From a virus, in the IMG/VR virus record IMGVR_UViG_3300032246_002701, positions 1 through 64,000 of that record: a stretch of DNA of 64,000 nucleotides; one strand, written 5' to 3'. Of the stretch, positions 2,437 through 34,369 are shown in pieces (position 1 is the stretch's first letter; each line of letters opens with the position of its first letter). A program made the translations under genes and the position numbers. The notes under the pieces are model-generated. The model made no database searches and was not told the DNA's origin. It was given only the letters and a program-made list of their open reading frames with translations.

Positions 2437-5400
2437 ATGGCACAGGATCGTTACACCAATAATAGTACCGGTTATGAACATCCACAGGAGAGCAATCTCT
2501 TAAACATACATAAGGCAATGACCTACAATGCTGCTGGTGAACCAGTCTTGCGGGTCTTAACATACAGCAGTGGAGGCGGAATGGATCTAACAGCATTGAG
2601 TGTTGTAACAACCTCATCATACCTTGGTGGCAGTTTAGCCTATGACAACACCACTGGCGTGTTTACATTTGCTCCGGCCAACGAGTTAAAAAATCTATCA
2701 GTGGGCAATGATCCCAACGCTGATCCAGCAGATACTAACCTGCAGACTATACTGGGCAGTGTCAATGGTGCTGATATTGTACTAGAACCACTCAACGGCA
2801 GTGTGCGTGTATCTGCTCTTAAAGTAGGTTCTGGTGGAAACATATTAAACACTACCTTAAACATTGAAGCCTATATCACAACATATGAATTGGTCAGTAT
2901 AGTTGACTACAGTACTGGGACCAACGATGCCTTAGTTATTGGTACCTATGGTAATATCAACGGTGTGCTCGCTCCTTGGACTGTGTTTGAACTGGCTTCA
3001 GGCATCAGCGGTATACCTATCAGTGCTATTGAAATCAACGACCGACTAACTGGGGCGGGCATTGTTCCTAGTACAGTTAAAGATCGTGGCGCAGGCGGCC
3101 CCGGCGGTGGTGATACTTCAACTTGGAATACCTATGTCATAGTTAACTTAGATCTAACAGGACTAGGACAAGTACTGCCTTTACCGGGCGCAGTATTTGA
3201 CCTTACTCGCCCCTTGAACAAGGCTAACCTGAATATTCAAAGTTCCCAGGGAACAGACATTTTCCTTGACAGTACTGGACTAGGTGATGTTATTGTCAAC
3301 ACCAACATCCTACCTGTTACTAACAACATCAGTAGTTTAGGTTCTCCCACTAAACGATGGAAATCAATTTATCTTGGACCGGGTACTATCTATGTCTTTG
3401 ACGAAACACTGGGCAAGGATCTTTCTATCGGTGCCCGCGATGGTCTACTCTATGTACAAAACGGTGCTGGATTATCAGTCGGCGAGTTTACATTCATAGA
3501 CAATCAGATTAGGATTGCTAACTCTGCTAGAGATATCATCATTGGTTCAACTGGTGCCACAGCCAGTGTAGTGTTCAATCGTGCTATCAAAGTTAAGAAC
3601 AATCTCGGAGCACTGGCTTTTGAAGTTGACAGAAACGGTATCACTTCAATCTTTACGCCCAGCGGCGCCGACCCCAACAAAGGCACACTGAACATCATTG
3701 GCACAGTCAGTGGACTGACACAGCCTCGTGGCACATTATACGATGGCACACTGTTACACCTAACAGCACAAGACGGAAAGAGCAGTCGCATCAGTTCGGA
3801 TAGTTTTGGCACAGGTGTATATCCTTTGTATGCGGGTCGTGCGGCCCGTGGCACAGTCAGTGCTCCTACAGCAGTACAGTTGAACGATATACTATCAAGA
3901 CTAACAGCCGCAGGCTATGGCACAAGTCGGTATATGACAGGTATCAGCCGTTTTGATGCTGTGGCCTCAGAAAACTTTACTGACACAGCCTCAGGCACTA
4001 AGTTTGTATTTTCTACTACTCCCGTTGGCAACACGGCTACACAAGTATCAGCCACTGTTGACAGCACTGGCATAACCTTTGCTGGAGCAGTAGATGCCGA
4101 TGCTGGTATCACTTTTAGACTTGGTTCAAGGCTAACTTATTTTCCAACACCTGTAGGGCAAACTAACTATTATCTAAAAAGCAACGGTACTACAATGTCG
4201 TGGCAACCATTGCCGGTTACAGAAAATCCGATCATCTACAAAGGTTCCTGGAACGCAGACAGCAATACTCCGGCATTGAGCACTTCAACTCCTGTGGGAT
4301 TAGTATCAGGTTGGGAATTTTCAATCTCTGCCAGTGGCACACAAAACATTGGCAATGGACCACAATACTATGCCGCAGGTGGATTTGTTATATTCAACGG
4401 CACCATATGGGAATACATACCTCCTGTGACTGGGGTTTCCAGCATACAGTTTGACGGTGGATCAGTTCAGACTGGCGTGGTACAGGTTCAAAGTACAGAT
4501 ATTACCAGCACATTGAATACAGGCAGTATTGCCAACGCCAAACTGGCCAACAGTTCAATAACTGTTAACGCAGGTACTGGACTATTGGGCGGCGGCACAG
4601 TGGCATTGGGCAGTAGTATAACATTATCTAACAATGGCGTGGTTGGTGTATCCGCAGGCACAGGCATTGGTGTATCAGGCACGGGCACGGTTACAATATC
4701 CAATACTGGTGTACTGACAGTTACAGGTACTAATCATATTTCAGCCAGCGTGGTCAGCGGCGCTGTCACAGTTACCAGCGATGCTACCATTAACGCTACT
4801 AACAATACTATAGCATTGAGAGACAGTGTTGGCGGATTAGAAGCCAAAGACTTTACAGCCACACAGGATGCCAGCATCAGAAGTGATCACGGCCCATTCA
4901 ACTACGGTACATTAAGTTACAGTGATACAGGCATTATGGCTGATTTTAGTTACTCAGTCAACAGTTATAATCAAGTTGTACTACAGAATAGAAACGCAGG
5001 AGCCGCAGCCAGTACAAACTACATAGTTAGCAACAACCTAGGCACATCTAGTACCTACTATGGTGAGTTTGGCATGAACTCAAGTGGGTTCAGCGGATCA
5101 GGTAGTTTTGCCCTACCTAATGCTGTTTATCTTGCGGCAGTGTCCAGCGATTTAGTCATCGGTACACTGGGCAACAATAGTCTTCGCATAGTAACCAACA
5201 ACAGCGGCACAGATGCTGTCTCAATAAACTCAAGTGGTATTGCTACATTTGCCAATCAAATCGTGGGCAGCATCAGTGGATCAGCCAACAATGTTAGACA
5301 GAATCTAACAGCAGGCACAGGTATATCATTTAGCATGGGCACTACCTACAATGGATCTGCGGCTATAACTATCAGTGCTACCAATACCGCTACAGGCACA

Positions 5401-23539: not shown

Positions 23540-23568
23540 TTGACACAGCCCAAATTTCTGTGTATAAT
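23540..23568 (+). promoter_or_regulatory. Consensus sigma70 (early) promoter
   Basis: TTGACA, 17-base spacer, TATAAT: a perfect consensus promoter for host RNA polymerase. It would drive the 48-residue gene, the DUF2452 gene and probably the tmRNA locus. Confidence 0.85.
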
Positions 23569-23613: not shown

Positions 23614-23760
23614 ATGTACCAGTTTCGAGTTTGGGTTCGTCTTAACCAGTATCAAACTGCTGATATTGTGATTAATGCCAACAATGATTGGGAAGCCAAA
23701 CTACTCGCAGAAGGCATGTACGGTCAAGGTAATGTGCTTAATTATACTCGAATTAATTAA
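23614..23760 (+). CDS. Small phage protein (48 residues)
   Basis: The first gene behind a perfect sigma70 promoter encodes MYQFRVWVRLNQYQTADIV and ends in a TAATG overlap with the DUF2452 gene. AAAAGG lies upstream of the ATG. A beta-rich start and a helical middle (DWEAKLLAEGMYG). Early expression and coupling support it as a real gene. Function unknown. Confidence 0.6.
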   Translation: MYQFRVWVRLNQYQTADIVINANNDWEAKLLAEGMYGQGNVLNYTRIN

Positions 23761-24260
23761 TGAGTGAAGAAGAGGCTGACAGGTCAAATTTAGCCAAAGG
23801 CCAAAATAGTTTCGATATTGCACCAGGGGGATCTTTGGTGCAATTTTTTAACAGAAACTCCACCCCTTATCCTGTTGAAGTAGGCGGCCCAAAGTTTGAC
23901 CTGGTCCCTGTGACCAAACAGAAAGATGTCATGCTCAATGTGGCCAGATTACATGCCCGCCAAGAGTATGATCGAATTATGCAATTGGTTTCAGTGCTGC
24001 AAGAACAGGCCGCTCAAATTAAACGTCGGTTAGATGTAACAGATCAAGTTTACGCAGCGGAATATCAGTTTCAAGTTCATCACGGTAGTTGTTATTGGTT
24101 GGCCGTTGACACCAGACGGGAAAAGACTATACTATGTCATATGGGTCCTACAGAGTGGAGTACAGGTGCACCTGATCACTACGAGTATTTGGCCCGCGTT
24201 AAGTTTTTGGGAGACCATACTTGGATTGAAGTGGACCATGATGGCAACCCAATATGGTGA
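23760..24260 (+). CDS. DUF2452 family protein
   Basis: 166 residues. From about 55 onward (LHARQEYDRIMQLVSVLQ, then FQVHHGSCYWL and GPTEWSTGAPDHYEYLARV) the sequence follows the DUF2452 pattern, a family also present in eukaryotes (human C1orf50) whose function is unknown. The central helix is followed by a beta region with conserved His, Tyr and Trp. The gene is transcribed from the sigma70 promoter at 23540, so early. Its stop codon overlaps the first base pairs of the tmRNA-like element behind it. Confidence 0.75.
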   Translation: MSEEEADRSNLAKGQNSFDIAPGGSLVQFFNRNSTPYPVEVGGPKFDLVPVTKQKDVMLNVARLHARQEYDRIMQLVSVLQEQAAQIKRRLDVTDQVYAAEYQFQVHHGSCYWLAVDTRREKTILCHMGPTEWSTGAPDHYEYLARVKFLGDHTWIEVDHDGNPIW

Positions 24261-24410
24261 ATAAATAAAAGTATTCGTTGAAGGTAGAAGTATAAGGGCA
24301 AGACGCGGCTCTCGGATGCCGCCATCTTCACCAGAAGCACATACGCCGATAGCAGGCGACTAAGGCAGCTATGCGAAATCTTAGTTTTATGTGTGCTTCT
24401 GATGGAGATG
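24257..24410 (+). ncRNA. Degenerate permuted tmRNA, acceptor copy 1
   Basis: 24257-24333 aligns along its whole length with the acceptor piece of the intact tmRNA at 24694. It has a T-arm-like hairpin (GCGGC 24305-24309 / GCCGC 24318-24322), but its loop has 8 bases and lacks TTCGANT. The 3' acceptor strand CATCTTC (24323-24329) plus ACCA pairs with GGAGATG at 24404-24410. The intervening sequence forms a 10-bp stem (24334-24343 / 24390-24399). No tag-coding domain follows; a small gene does. Probably a decayed duplicate, though compensatory pairing is retained. Confidence 0.6.
24358..24398 (+). repeat. 41-base direct repeat, copy 1
   Basis: Identical over 41 bases to 24650-24690. It forms its own hairpin (ACTAAG / CTTAGT) and ends in TGTGCTT, which pairs with AAGCACA behind each CCA end. 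In copy 1 it is the 3' part of the intervening sequence. Confidence 0.9.
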
Positions 24411-24434
24411 CCAACTCCACCATAAGGAGATTTT

Positions 24435-24581
24435 ATGAAGAAAACATTTTTATGTGAACTTGAAAAAGATGACAAAGTTTGTAAAGCCATTGTAAGAGCC
24501 AATGATATGGAAGAAGCAGTTAGAAATTTATCACTAAATTGGCGAGTAATTAGCATAAAAGAACATCAAATCTCTTTATGA
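24435..24581 (+). CDS. Small protein inside the tmRNA locus (48 residues)
   Basis: ATG preceded by a strong AAGGAGA site encodes MKKTFLCELEKDDKVCK and a helical C-terminal half ending in HQISL. It lies where the coding piece of the first tmRNA copy would be expected, so it may have replaced it. No similarity recognised. A truncated 5' tmRNA fragment begins 8 bases after its stop. Confidence 0.55.
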   Translation: MKKTFLCELEKDDKVCKAIVRANDMEEAVRNLSLNWRVISIKEHQISL

Positions 24582-24588
24582 TGAGCCT

Positions 24589-24650
24589 GACCAGGTTTCG
24601 ACGTGGTGATCAGTATGAACCTGGAGAATCGGCAAAGCAGAAGCCGTTAG
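24589..24650 (+). pseudogene. tmRNA 5'-domain fragment
   Basis: 62 bases identical at 60 positions to the intact tmRNA 5' domain (24845-24906), including GGTTTCGACG. The 5' acceptor strand is missing and the tag reading frame is absent; the fragment runs straight into copy 2 of the 41-base repeat. It keeps a perfect CCAGGTT / AACCTGG pairing that is imperfect in the intact copy. Confidence 0.75.
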
Positions 24651-24690
24651 ACTAAGGCAGCTATGCGAAATCTTAGTTTTATGTGTGCTT
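24650..24690 (+). repeat. 41-base direct repeat, copy 2
   Basis: Same 41 bases as 24358-24398. Here it joins the tmRNA 5'-domain fragment to the functional acceptor piece, and its TGTGCTT end pairs with AAGCACA (24772-24778) behind the CCA. Confidence 0.9.
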
Positions 24691-24693
24691 TTG

Positions 24694-25026
24694 GTGAATT
24701 AGTAGAAGAATTCGGTGAAGGGAACAGAAAAGCATTGCGGACGCGGGTTCGATTCCCGCCTCCTCCACCAAAAGCACATTCTTTGAGGTCTTGGTCGTTA
24801 CCAGCGTAGCAAAAACGGCGACAGAGTGTGTTTTTGGAGGGGGAGACCTGGTTTCGACGTGGTGATCAGTATGAACTTGGAGAATCGGCAAAGCAGAAGC
24901 CGTTAGGGTTGGGATTACCCGGCCGTAGAAGCAAATCAAGTAAATGCAAACGATGCATATTTCGGAGAAACACGCCTAGCGGCCTGATCTCTGCGGGGTT
25001 TGATCAACCTTGTTACCAAATAGATC
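24694..25026 (+). ncRNA. ssrA: Circularly permuted (two-piece) tmRNA
   Basis: The gene order is acceptor piece, intervening sequence, coding piece. Acceptor: T-arm GCGGG-TTCGATT-CCCGC (24743-24759), 3' strand CTCCTCC, discriminator A and encoded CCA (24768-24770). The 5' strand GGAGGGG (24836-24842) pairs with it over 7 bp, one G-U. The intervening 24771-24835 forms an extended stem. GGTTTCGACG follows the acceptor. CATTGC in the acceptor piece can pair with GTGGTG in the coding piece, as helix P2. The tag frame 24946-24987 reads ANDAYFGETRLAA then stop, and TGATCT / AGATCA closes a P5-like stem behind it. A pseudoknot-like CGGC...GCCG stem precedes the tag. It would rescue stalled ribosomes and mark proteins for Clp degradation. 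Confidence 0.9.
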
Positions 25027-25054
25027 AGAAAGGCTCTTTGGGGCCTTTCTTTTT
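25027..25054 (+). terminator. Rho-independent terminator of tmRNA
   Basis: An 8-bp stem (AGAAAGGC / GCCTTTCT) and a T run directly behind the tmRNA coding piece. Confidence 0.9.
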
Positions 25055-25132
25055 GATTAATATTTGAATATCTAATTGTAACAAATAAGTTTACAAAATT
25101 TAATAAATAAATGTTTAAAGGAGGGCAAGTTT

Positions 25133-29058: not shown

Positions 29059-29453
29059 TGGAGGGAAAAATTACATTAATCACACCACCGGATATTTTTG
29101 AGAATGATTCGCACAGTATTCTTTTCATACATCTTTCTGATCAAGACCAAATAGCAGTTAGTGAATGGTTATCTAGATCTTCAATCAAGGAAAATATCAA
29201 TGTCTATTTCTACGATCAAGAAATAGAATTAACTTGGTTGTTTCATGCAATTGCTCGCTGTGATTACACATTTATTGATACCGACAATACGACAGAAACA
29301 ACCGATGCATTGAGCGGATATATTCTTGGTAAAAAAAATACATTCTATAAAACTGTTAGTGAAAATAAATCCGCAGTTTATCATTATATAAACCAAAATC
29401 GGATAACTAATATTGAATTATTTTTAGAAAAGGCATTTGATGTCAAGGACTGA
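29058..29453 (+). CDS. Hypothetical protein upstream of clpX
   Basis: A 131-residue soluble alpha/beta protein (MEGKITLITPPDIFENDS). The strand/helix alternation (SILFIHLSDQDQ, INVYFYDQE, CDYTFIDTDN) resembles nucleoside-deoxyribosyltransferase or Toll-like small alpha/beta folds, without diagnostic catalytic residues. It overlaps both neighbours, so translation with clpX is coupled. Confidence 0.55.
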   Translation: MEGKITLITPPDIFENDSHSILFIHLSDQDQIAVSEWLSRSSIKENINVYFYDQEIELTWLFHAIARCDYTFIDTDNTTETTDALSGYILGKKNTFYKTVSENKSAVYHYINQNRITNIELFLEKAFDVKD

Positions 29454-30678
29454 TATTAAACATATCTGCAATTTTTGTAGTAAAAGCAAAGAAGATGTAG
29501 AAAAACTGATTGTAGGAGAACATGTAGCAATCTGCAATGATTGTGTTGATCTTTGTGTTAGCATTCTTAAAGATGAAAAAATCAAAAACTTTCCTAGTGA
29601 TAAGAAATTACTTAATCCGGTATTGATTAAAGATTATCTAGATGAGTATGTAGTCGGGCAAGACGAAGCAAAAATCGCGCTCAGTGTGGCAGTAAGTCAA
29701 CACTACAAACGTATTAACAATCCTAGCAAAGATATTGAATTAGAAAAAACCAATGTGCTCATGCTAGGGCCTACTGGGTGTGGTAAAACTATGATGGCCC
29801 GCAAAATTGCAGACTATCTGAAACTACCGTTTGCTATTTGCGATGCTACTGGAATTACAGAAGCAGGATATGTCGGTGATGATGTGGAAAGTATATTAGT
29901 TCGATTAATCAACGAAGCGGACGGTGATATTGAAAAAGCCAGTAGGGGAATTGTGTACATCGACGAAATTGATAAAATTGCCCGCAAAGGTGAAAATGTC
30001 AGTCTTACCCGAGATGTTAGCGGAGAAGGAGTTCAACAAGGGCTTCTTAAAATGATCGAAGGAACTATAATGCGAGTTCCTATTTCTGGTAAGAGGAAGC
30101 ATCCTACTTCTGATATGCAAGAGATCGATACCCGAGGGATATTGTTTATTTGCGGTGGTGCATTTGTGGGCATAGATAAAATTGTTCAGCAGAGAAAAAA
30201 TGCCCGTTCTATAGGGTTTGGTGCTAATATAACATCTGATATTGATTCCTCGTCATTTTATCAAGAAGTAACTACTAAAGATCTTATCAAGTTTGGTCTC
30301 ATTCCGGAATTTATAGGAAGATTCGGGCTATGCATTAATGTTGAGGAACTATCAGTAGGTCAATTGGTTCAGGTTCTTAAAGATACAAAAAATAGTCTAA
30401 TTAGACAGTATAAATATCTTTTTGAATTAGACGGTATTGAATTAATTTTTGATCAAGAATCTTTAGAATCAATTGCTATTAAATCTAAAGAATTAAAAAC
30501 AAATGCTCGTGGTCTAAAAAACATTATTGAAAAAACCCTGCTTCCCTATCAATTCGATGCGGTTAATCTAGTTGAACGGGGGTTGAGAACAATTCGGATA
30601 AGTAAAGGTACCATCGAAGGCCACACTGCTGAGATGATTTTTGATAAGAAGAAAAATGAACAACAACAAATCAAATAA
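29440..30678 (+). CDS. clpX: ClpX, AAA+ unfoldase of the Clp protease
   Basis: 412 residues, full-length ClpX. N-terminal zinc domain with Cys10, Cys13, Cys32, Cys35; Walker A GPTGCGKT at 110-117; pore loop GYVG at 143-146; Walker B VYIDEIDK at 172-179; RKH loop at 219-221; ClpP-docking IGF loop at 258-260; sensor/arginine-finger region PEFIGR near 285. With the IGF loop intact it should bind ClpP. No clpP is seen here, so it would use host ClpP or a phage ClpP outside the window. ssrA tags ending in LAA, like the one encoded by the tmRNA at 24694, are classic ClpX substrates. ATG preferred over the TTG one codon upstream. Confidence 0.95.
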   Translation: MSRTDIKHICNFCSKSKEDVEKLIVGEHVAICNDCVDLCVSILKDEKIKNFPSDKKLLNPVLIKDYLDEYVVGQDEAKIALSVAVSQHYKRINNPSKDIELEKTNVLMLGPTGCGKTMMARKIADYLKLPFAICDATGITEAGYVGDDVESILVRLINEADGDIEKASRGIVYIDEIDKIARKGENVSLTRDVSGEGVQQGLLKMIEGTIMRVPISGKRKHPTSDMQEIDTRGILFICGGAFVGIDKIVQQRKNARSIGFGANITSDIDSSSFYQEVTTKDLIKFGLIPEFIGRFGLCINVEELSVGQLVQVLKDTKNSLIRQYKYLFELDGIELIFDQESLESIAIKSKELKTNARGLKNIIEKTLLPYQFDAVNLVERGLRTIRISKGTIEGHTAEMIFDKKKNEQQQIK

Positions 30679-30987: not shown

Positions 30988-31518
30988 ATGCCGCGTCATT
31001 GTATGATAGATTTAGAGACTATGGCGGTTAGTCCCAATGCTGTAGTTCTCAGTCTTGGTGCAGTACACTTTGATCCTTATAGCAACGGATACAGTAAATC
31101 TCTCTATTTTAAAATTGATCTCGATGACCAAGATAAATTAGGTAGAGAAATTGATCCAAATACATTAGATTGGTGGGCTAGGCAAGATATTGAAATTATG
31201 GAAGAAGCATTCAGCCAAGAAGGTAGAATTTCACTGGTAGATGCTCTAGATCAATTTCACAAATTTGCATGGGGCTGCGATGCGTTTTGGAGCCACGGTG
31301 CTACGTTTGATATTGTAATTCTAGAAAACATCTATCGACAACTTAATAAATCACTGCCATGGAATTATTGGCAGATTCGTGATACGCGCACTCTTTTTGA
31401 TATTGGATTTTCTCCCGATATGCCTAAAGAGAATAAACATGATGCGTTGCAGGATGCTATTCGACAGTCAGTGGGTGTTCAAAATGTGTATGCAAAACTT
31501 AATTTGCATACACAGTAA
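30988..31518 (+). CDS. DEDD-type 3'-5' exonuclease (DexA-like)
   Basis: 176 residues: MIDLETM at 6-12 (Asp-x-Glu), FWSHGATFDIVIL near 94-106 (second Asp) and KHDALQDAI near 151-159 (His and last Asp), the DEDDh set of the DnaQ superfamily. It resembles T4 DexA and related phage exonucleases that degrade host DNA. It has its own sigma70 promoter and CCGGAG site, fitting early expression. RNase T-like activity is the alternative. Confidence 0.85.
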   Translation: MPRHCMIDLETMAVSPNAVVLSLGAVHFDPYSNGYSKSLYFKIDLDDQDKLGREIDPNTLDWWARQDIEIMEEAFSQEGRISLVDALDQFHKFAWGCDAFWSHGATFDIVILENIYRQLNKSLPWNYWQIRDTRTLFDIGFSPDMPKENKHDALQDAIRQSVGVQNVYAKLNLHTQ

Positions 31519-33183: not shown

Positions 33184-33738
33184 ATGAGCCTAAAAGAACT
33201 GACCGCTGAAAAACACAAATTAGCAGAGACCACTCCATTCATGAAGGCAGTGTTTGCAAGAACACTGCCCTTTGAACTATGGATAGATTGGACTTATCAA
33301 AAGGCCTTGTTCTACCATGTACTAGAAGGTATTGCAGGATCAAGGTTATTACTAACCGATCTTCCAGATATTCGTCGAGGTTATAAACTACAGCAAGACT
33401 ATCAACAAATGCTCAATGGTGCACCGTTTACACATCTACATAAAAAGTCTGTATTGGACTATCACAGTTATTTGCTGTCATTGACCGAAACTAAAGATGT
33501 TATGGCTCACTTGTATACTTGGCACATGGGTGATTTGTATGGCGGGCAAATGATCAAGAAAATTGTTAACGCTCCGCACAGTAGTTTAGATTTCGCCGAT
33601 CCTCTTACGCTTATGACCAATATGCGAGCCAAGTTGGATGACAGCATGGGAGCAGAAGCAAACAGAGCCTTTGATTGGGCTATACGCATGATGAGGGAAT
33701 ATGACAGCAGTTTGGAACAAGATACAGCAGTTGGCTGA
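33184..33738 (+). CDS. ho1: Heme oxygenase
   Basis: 184 residues, HO-1 fold: the proximal His is His11 in TAEKHKLAE, and the distal helix is WHMGDLYGGQMIKK near 118-131 with the flexible Gly pair. It opens heme to biliverdin IXalpha, iron and CO using ferredoxin. GAGG before ATG. A bilin reductase overlaps its end by 38 bases, so biliverdin would be passed straight on. Cyanophages carry similar ho1 genes. Confidence 0.92.
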   Translation: MSLKELTAEKHKLAETTPFMKAVFARTLPFELWIDWTYQKALFYHVLEGIAGSRLLLTDLPDIRRGYKLQQDYQQMLNGAPFTHLHKKSVLDYHSYLLSLTETKDVMAHLYTWHMGDLYGGQMIKKIVNAPHSSLDFADPLTLMTNMRAKLDDSMGAEANRAFDWAIRMMREYDSSLEQDTAVG

Positions 33739-34369
33739 ACAGATAGAACTAAAGTTCGAGCAATCCGGCGAACAGTACTCAAGTACAGAACATAACTATA
33801 ACTGGTATAACAGTTTATACTCAAGCCCTCGATACCGCAGGGCTCATGTAGAGATTGTAGATAACAGGCAAACACACAAAATCTACATTCTGCACTCCAC
33901 TGTATTTGCACATTTCAATGATCCTAGCCCAATTTGGGGCTTTGATGCGGTATGTGGCCCAAATAAAATCACAGGTGCGTTTCATGATTTTAGTGCTGCA
34001 GGAGACCCCGATCACCCTATGATCAAGTGGTTTGCTGCCGAGTCTGCTCAGTTAGAATGGAACAAACCCAGAGAATTACCTGTTTGGGCTCGGCAAATAT
34101 TCACTCCGCACATGATCGCTGCAGGCAATGTAAATGATGGTGCTGAATTAGATGCATTGTGCGACATGGCACTACGCAGCCTAGACTACTACTTGACCAA
34201 CGTAGGTAATACGCAGACCGCAGGTGCGGATTATCATATGGCACAAAACCGGTATTGTTATTATCAAAAACAGAATCCACATGTGATAAAAAGCATGGTT
34301 GCAATGGGCGTAGAAGAACCAACTATGAATCAGTTTGTCAACGAAATCTTATTCCCCGAAGTGGTATAA
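33701..34369 (+). CDS. Ferredoxin-dependent bilin reductase (PcyX/PebS-like)
   Basis: 222 residues. Family pattern: WYNSLYSSPRYRRAHVEIVD near 35-54, PIWGFDAVCGPNKITGAFHDFS near 77-98 with the catalytic Asp, and a C-terminal FVNEILFPE. These enzymes reduce biliverdin by two or four electrons to phytobilins. Cyanophage PebS makes phycoerythrobilin; PcyX is a related phage enzyme linked to non-cyanobacterial hosts. Which one applies cannot be decided by eye. It starts inside ho1, behind GAGGG, and ends 10 bases before the next gene. Confidence 0.85.
   Translation: MTAVWNKIQQLAEQIELKFEQSGEQYSSTEHNYNWYNSLYSSPRYRRAHVEIVDNRQTHKIYILHSTVFAHFNDPSPIWGFDAVCGPNKITGAFHDFSAAGDPDHPMIKWFAAESAQLEWNKPRELPVWARQIFTPHMIAAGNVNDGAELDALCDMALRSLDYYLTNVGNTQTAGADYHMAQNRYCYYQKQNPHVIKSMVAMGVEEPTMNQFVNEILFPEVV

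Follow-up and report, generated by a model that had tools for sequence, protein, structure and literature searches.

Two-piece tmRNAs with permuted order are a described kind of phage gene. The accessible text of PMC9004378 counts 53 two-piece forms in a set of 133 unique phage tmRNA structures and describes Methylophilales phage Melnitz, which carries a permuted tmRNA of the alphaproteobacterial type with a glutamine riboswitch; neither a spacer ORF nor ClpX is mentioned in that text. Further elements lodged inside tmRNA genes are also on record: according to the accessible part of PMC11915505, homing endonucleases occur in group I intron forms, including a LAGLIDADG gene in a self-splicing intron in the T-loop, one intervening segment holds a repetitive element, and one permuted tmRNA, from a single nominally archaeal genome, holds tRNA-Ala in its intervening sequence. 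Mycobacteriophage DS6A has a tag-less tRNA-like domain, and a DS6A-like molecule inhibits tmRNA (PMC4131195 and PMC11915505, accessible text). In the openly accessible literature, including the available portions of PMC11915505 and PMC4131195, we found no report of a permuted tmRNA whose intervening segment contains a protein ORF.

Here we analysed a 64,000-nt stretch of DNA (hereinafter designated the window) from a 65.5-kb virus record. An endolysin gene upstream, ribonucleotide reductase genes and a structural-protein match around the tmRNA gene bear out the original prediction that this gene is phage-borne. We consider it likely that the locus comprises a working two-piece tmRNA at 24,697–25,054 and, upstream of it, the relic of a tmRNA type whose spacer contains an ORF.

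An intact permuted tmRNA gene in a phage genome

The only gene that ARAGORN predicts in the window is a permuted tmRNA with the tag ANDAYFGETRLAA, located at 24678–25078. Two Rfam covariance models match above their cut-offs: RF04321 (tmRNA_permuted) at 24709–24987 with 106.4 bits (gathering score 47; E 9.8e-20), and RF01850 (beta_tmRNA) at 24677–25052 with 94.4 bits against 84 (E 2.5e-27). The gene has the following parts.

24697–24770, plus strand: acceptor piece, with the T-arm at 24743–24759 and the encoded CCA at 24768–24770
24760–24770, plus strand: acceptor 3′ strand including the encoded CCA (sequence)
24771–24838, plus strand: intervening segment, a long hairpin without an ORF of the spacer-ORF kind
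24839–25020, plus strand: coding piece with the 5′ acceptor strand GGGGGAG, the TTCGAC D-loop region and the tag; 3′ end approximate
24946–24987, plus strand: tag frame and stop, reading ANDAYFGETRLAA (ARAGORN and sequence)
25027–25054, plus strand: intrinsic terminator hairpin (sequence and terminator scan)

The acceptor piece lies 5′ of the coding piece, and its own 5′ end is not fixed, with ARAGORN starting at 24678 and RF04321 at 24709. The acceptor strands GGGGGAG and CTCCTCC (24839–24845 with 24760–24770) pair over 7 bp, G3-U70 included, CCA is encoded, and the fold of 24755–24860, the spacer hairpin, reaches −41.8 kcal/mol. G3-U70 is the alanine identity pair. It is common to 132 of 133 permuted tmRNA entries tested, namely all 54 of the ORF type described below and 78 of 79 others, the latter including some repeats of ORF-type spacers. 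The tag has a hydrophobic AA end and is kept at the protein level in a related phage (L093), where it reads ANDAYFGEDRLAA with mostly synonymous codon changes (sequence reading). Near the gene, Rfam finds neither a glutamine riboswitch nor any other known RNA at gathering score.

We conclude that the permuted tmRNA at 24,678–25,078 is genuine. The original prediction of a permuted tmRNA with a readable tag stands: the T-arm, encoded CCA, 7-bp acceptor pairing, intervening stem, tag frame and terminator that it had described could all be placed in the sequence, and the permuted covariance model, which it had proposed as a check, gave a hit (RF04321, 106.4 bits against 47). Compared with the RNAs described by RF04321 and RF01850, the gene is the same in piece order, T-arm, CCA, acceptor pairing, TTCGAC, tag and terminator, and differs in nothing essential; since phage permuted tmRNAs are already in print, it is by itself a further case of a published kind. 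The rarity that the same prediction ascribed to phage tmRNAs was overstated, in view of the 53 two-piece forms among 133 structures in the accessible text of PMC9004378 and of the RF04321 matches that we obtained in 19 of 25 phage records, every one of which had been selected as a relative or tmRNA carrier. In the phage collection, permuted tmRNAs are found in Stenotrophomonas, Xanthomonas, Tunturiibacter, Pseudomonas, Alcaligenes and Acinetobacter phages.

Several observations concern the surroundings of such genes. A DUF2452 gene (23760–24260) lies directly upstream of the tmRNA locus, preceded by a sigma-70 promoter match (12/12) at 23540–23568, and several related viral loci have a permuted tmRNA right behind DUF2452 (80 loci kept of 103 relatives in the comparison of this site). 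The reading of overlapping 'standard' tmRNA calls (L003, L065 and L071) as a conserved coding half upstream was abandoned: in the L065 and L003 sequences, the upstream parts of these calls are unrelated or fall within or close to the DUF2452 gene. No close relative of the window's coding half was found. In Tunturiibacter phage Tunturi_4 (L004), a gene with a peptide chain release factor domain lies directly 5′ of the permuted tmRNA. Another locus (L102) contains a complete permuted tmRNA and, some 700 nt further on (about 2828–3030 on the reverse complement of the locus), an additional coding piece that has a tag frame of its own but no acceptor piece. Tags of phage tmRNAs reach 31 residues (L111, L114, L148, L175 and others; for example ANADTFDFSAMSFTGNTVRGAANESRFALAA) and contain an internal ANES...LAA end.

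tmRNA fragments upstream of the intact gene

Upstream tmRNA fragments and an ORF in a second spacer had no place in the original prediction. Fragments of tmRNAs, with repeats that interlock, make up a mosaic at 24,273–24,696; its parts are as follows.

24273–24333, plus strand: acceptor-like relic (hereinafter designated piece A) with compensatory changes in T-stem and acceptor stem and an 8-nt T-loop without TTCRA
24334–24414, plus strand: hairpin spacer of piece A and the first coding-piece bases (GGAGATGCCAA, 24404–24414) (repeats and sequence)
24415–24429, plus strand: end of a lost acceptor piece (CTCCACCA), then directly the Shine-Dalgarno sequence TAAGGAG (sequence)
24435–24581, plus strand: 48-aa ORF (hereinafter designated ORF48) in the spacer of the relic, with UGA one base before the next coding-piece start
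24583–24650, plus strand: 5′ portion of a tag-less coding piece (hereinafter designated relic B) (repeats)
24650–24696, plus strand: second copy of the hairpin right half, 96% identical to the first copy at 24358–24404

Two interlocking direct repeats (24358–24404 with 24650–24696, and 24589–24650 with 24845–24906) run through this region, and over the 62 nt of the second repeat relic B shares 96.8% identity with the intact coding piece. From 5′ to 3′, the order is the acceptor-like piece with its hairpin spacer (24273–24414), the ORF48 fragment (24415–24650), the hairpin right half and the intact gene. The ORF48 fragment holds an encoded CCA, a Shine-Dalgarno sequence right behind it, the 48-aa ORF and a coding start. 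Its first bases (CCAACTCCACCATAAGGAG) match the acceptor ends of two relatives, L092 and L094; the ORF begins at +12 after the CCA, within the +8 to +14 that characterizes the ORF type, and is open to the coding piece, with its stop one base before 24583. The coding start GAGCCTG has no remaining acceptor partner. Since the fragment is flanked only by CTCCACCA and a tag-less coding start in place of intact acceptor and coding pieces, it is a relic and no working member. No relative of ORF48 was found in viral_contigs, and its Pfam match lies below the cut-off.

We assign the upstream relic to a phage tmRNA type, apparently not described before, with a small protein encoded in the spacer. The repeats suggest tandem duplication and exchange among tmRNA alleles, in an order of rearrangements that we infer as follows: 24,415–24,650 would derive from a permuted tmRNA type whose intervening segment is a small gene, the acceptor of this ORF-type copy would have been lost, and a hairpin-type acceptor with its spacer, now downstream, would have become joined to nearly the same coding piece.

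Alternatively, the upstream pieces could be functional in their own right, with piece A or relic B acting in trans or as an SmpB decoy of the kind proposed for DS6A; we regard this as unlikely. A DS6A-like molecule does inhibit tmRNA (PMC4131195 and PMC11915505, accessible text), and the stems of piece A are kept by compensatory changes, its fold with the spacer reaches −50.5 kcal/mol, and the leader hairpin is kept in L085. However, the T-loop of piece A has 8 nt and no TTCRA and its 3:70 pair is A-U instead of G-U, which sets it apart from an intact domain of the DS6A kind; relic B has neither a tag nor an acceptor partner; and piece A is mostly deleted in L085, where a DUF2452-like frame lies upstream (sequence reading).

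Open reading frames in the spacers of related phage tmRNAs

Spacer ORFs were first seen by sequence reading in the relatives L091, L092, L094 and L103. A search of viral sequences for an acceptor pattern that ends in CCATAAGG (TAAGG after CCA) gave 119 stretches, and 80 of these loci were fetched. As the pattern includes part of the Shine-Dalgarno sequence, the presence of this motif in them is ascertained, whereas ORF length and stop are not. ARAGORN permuted tmRNAs overlap 61 of the 80; among the 19 without a call, 11 end about 220 nt or less past the CCA, a coding motif is present at 279–351 nt in 5, and 3 (L127, L161 and L178) show none. The pooled fetched loci comprise 136 entries with 115 distinct spacers, window relic included, of which 104 measure 40–700 nt. 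A Shine-Dalgarno sequence and a start are present in 59 of these 104 segments, and in 55, again including the window relic, an ORF of 15 aa or more extends as far as the coding piece, a count in which the coding start of L092 is misplaced and from which L091 and L103, despite the spacer ORFs seen in their sequences, and L239 and L259, with weaker Shine-Dalgarno sequences, are left out. In 35 of the 55, the window relic among them, a single base separates the stop from the coding piece; in 11 the stop ends 9–13 bases ahead of the coding piece and in 9 inside it.

Dinucleotide shuffles of the spacer bodies, run on the 55 passing spacers and omitting the 4 of 59 that fail, yield 7.6 expected ORFs against the 55 observed. 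By blastp, the ORFs form 30 protein families. Pfam searches with ten of them gave two matches above cut-off, a complete thioredoxin in L135 (75.4 bits, E 4.1e-21) and PGDYG in L118 (27.8 bits against 27); L136 (GNAT-like) and ORF48 fell below cut-off and six had no match. The dN/dS ratio is 0.09–0.51 in 10 of 11 ORF pairs and undefined in one, and a family of nine 24-aa membrane peptides has a pN/pS of 0.19, with 163, 64 and 340 changes at the three codon positions. Judged by these sequence comparisons, selection acts against amino-acid changes in the spacer ORFs.

The Shine-Dalgarno strand and the strand preceding the stop form an 11-bp helix. Across 44 distinct arm pairs, positions 1, 7, 8 and 11 are paired better than in all 2000 shuffles and position 10 better than in nearly all; pairing at positions 4, 5 and 9 is not above shuffles, and positions 2 and 3 are invariant. 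The pattern of base changes thus indicates that the Shine-Dalgarno/stop helix covaries. Many permuted tmRNA genes have UGAU opposite ACCA in the precursor helix, whether an ORF is present or absent, so that the stop position is partly forced; the ORFs use the helix UGA as stop and the post-CCA strand as Shine-Dalgarno sequence, and their translation signals would therefore be built from the processing helix.

The same facts leave some room for the view that the open frames in the spacers arose by chance or are passengers that go untranslated, with UAAGGAG and UGA present only for the precursor helix. UGAU opposite ACCA in ORF-less hairpin spacers and the invariant helix positions 2 and 3 would fit such an origin, ORFs of 22–25 aa are too short to stand out singly, and ORF48 taken alone has a shuffle expectation of 0.013 (P 0.013). 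We nevertheless think this quite improbable, given ORFs of up to 123 aa, shuffle P values of 0–0.024 for the 20 spacers of at least 156 nt, the complete thioredoxin in one spacer, the low dN/dS and the excess of third-position changes.

A second acceptor pattern without TAAGG gave at least 120 stretches, with 113 loci matching; among the matches listed, 12 of 54 distinct permuted spacers are of the ORF type by a strict rule. In bacterial genome_contigs, the first pattern gave 13 stretches (9 standard tmRNAs, 2 permuted tmRNAs, 1 tRNA and 1 uncalled) with one ORF case, L337. An endolysin gene nearby makes a phage contig in the bin likely, and a bacterial origin of the ORF type, for which L337 is the sole case, was rejected. 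Small host controls gave 2 of 369 over cut-off class-wide around the L337 genome, one of them the same contig, and 2 of 61 order-wide; the two clear host genes measure 312 nt in all, which leaves no room for a spacer ORF as long as those observed. Among named phages, no ORF type was found in the 6 loci examined, nor, by sequence reading, in Bhz51 and Rb1.

Protein-coding spacers of this kind are absent from the accessible descriptions of RF04321 and RF01850. The LAGLIDADG case (PMC11915505, accessible part) is alike in having a protein gene inside a tmRNA gene and differs in that it uses a self-splicing intron in the T-loop for a homing endonuclease, whereas the ORF type uses the inter-piece spacer, presumably removed by RNA cutting, for diverse small proteins. 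The permuted tmRNA with tRNA-Ala likewise has a second gene lodged in the intervening sequence, there an RNA gene and here a putative protein gene.

Proposed working of the locus and a phage ClpX

In the reading that we favour, a working two-piece tmRNA with an ORF-type relic upstream, the gene would be transcribed and the precursor of 24,697–25,054 cut out of the spacer hairpin; the acceptor and coding pieces would then pair and be charged with alanine. With host SmpB, the tmRNA would rescue stalled ribosomes and add ANDAYFGETRLAA, the LAA end of which could be read by phage ClpX with host ClpP. In the ORF type, with a Shine-Dalgarno sequence after the CCA, a UGA stop that faces the CCA end within the precursor helix and pairing between the two strands, a single transcript would yield tmRNA and, if the spacer ORF is translated, a small protein. 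That the intact-looking tmRNA is instead a decaying copy from which no functional RNA is made, as its position in a region full of broken copies might suggest, is highly improbable in view of both covariance scores above cut-off, the full 7-bp acceptor stem with G3-U70, the open tag kept at the protein level in L093 and the terminator.

A bolder extension, which we put forward only tentatively, takes the spacer of the ORF type, in a large number of phages, as a mini-mRNA with its Shine-Dalgarno sequence at the 5′ end, its stop one base from the 3′ end and its ends paired as the processing helix. Spacer translation would compete with tmRNA maturation, the freed mini-mRNA, which terminates immediately beyond its stop codon, would be a natural substrate of its own tmRNA, and the locus might act as a self-adjusting sensor of ribosome rescue.

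Downstream of the tmRNA gene lies the candidate partner for the tag.

29437–30678, plus strand: phage ClpX, with zinc finger and AAA+ domain (domain matches and equivalog match)

The product passes the NCBIfam ClpX equivalog (518 bits against a cut-off of 359), has the zinc finger and aligns over nearly its whole length with a solved ClpX (E 3.8e-121). The AAA+ motifs are present together with the GYVG, RKH and IGF motifs. The protein thus resembles bacterial ClpX in equivalog-level match, zinc finger and motifs, and differs in being phage-encoded with no ClpP found in the same record. Family searches of the record, which may be incomplete, found neither SmpB nor ClpP; both would have to be supplied by the host. 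Use of the tag with Clp proteases, as the original prediction had it, becomes more plausible with a ClpX equivalog in the same phage.

Among the 25 records, the ClpX finger occurs in 15, a permuted tmRNA in 19 and both in 11. The two genes are less than 6.5 kb apart in 6 of these 11, three of them at identical distance and probably of one lineage, and 50–188 kb apart in the remaining 5. The accessible text of PMC7162821 mentions phage tmRNA and SmpB and contains no Clp-prefixed word. Nearby, a 3′-5′ exoribonuclease gene of the Rv2179c type (30988–31518) lies between the ClpX and bilin genes, and a heme oxygenase gene adjoins a ferredoxin-dependent bilin reductase gene (33184–34369).

If the spacer-ORF class is true, many phages would have a protein gene in a part of a non-coding RNA precursor that is supposed to be discarded, with translation signals formed by the processing helix. 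The class indicates where phage small proteins skipped by gene finders may be sought and would allow a direct test of processing versus translation on one transcript, and the tmRNA together with the phage ClpX is a candidate module for phage control of proteolysis.
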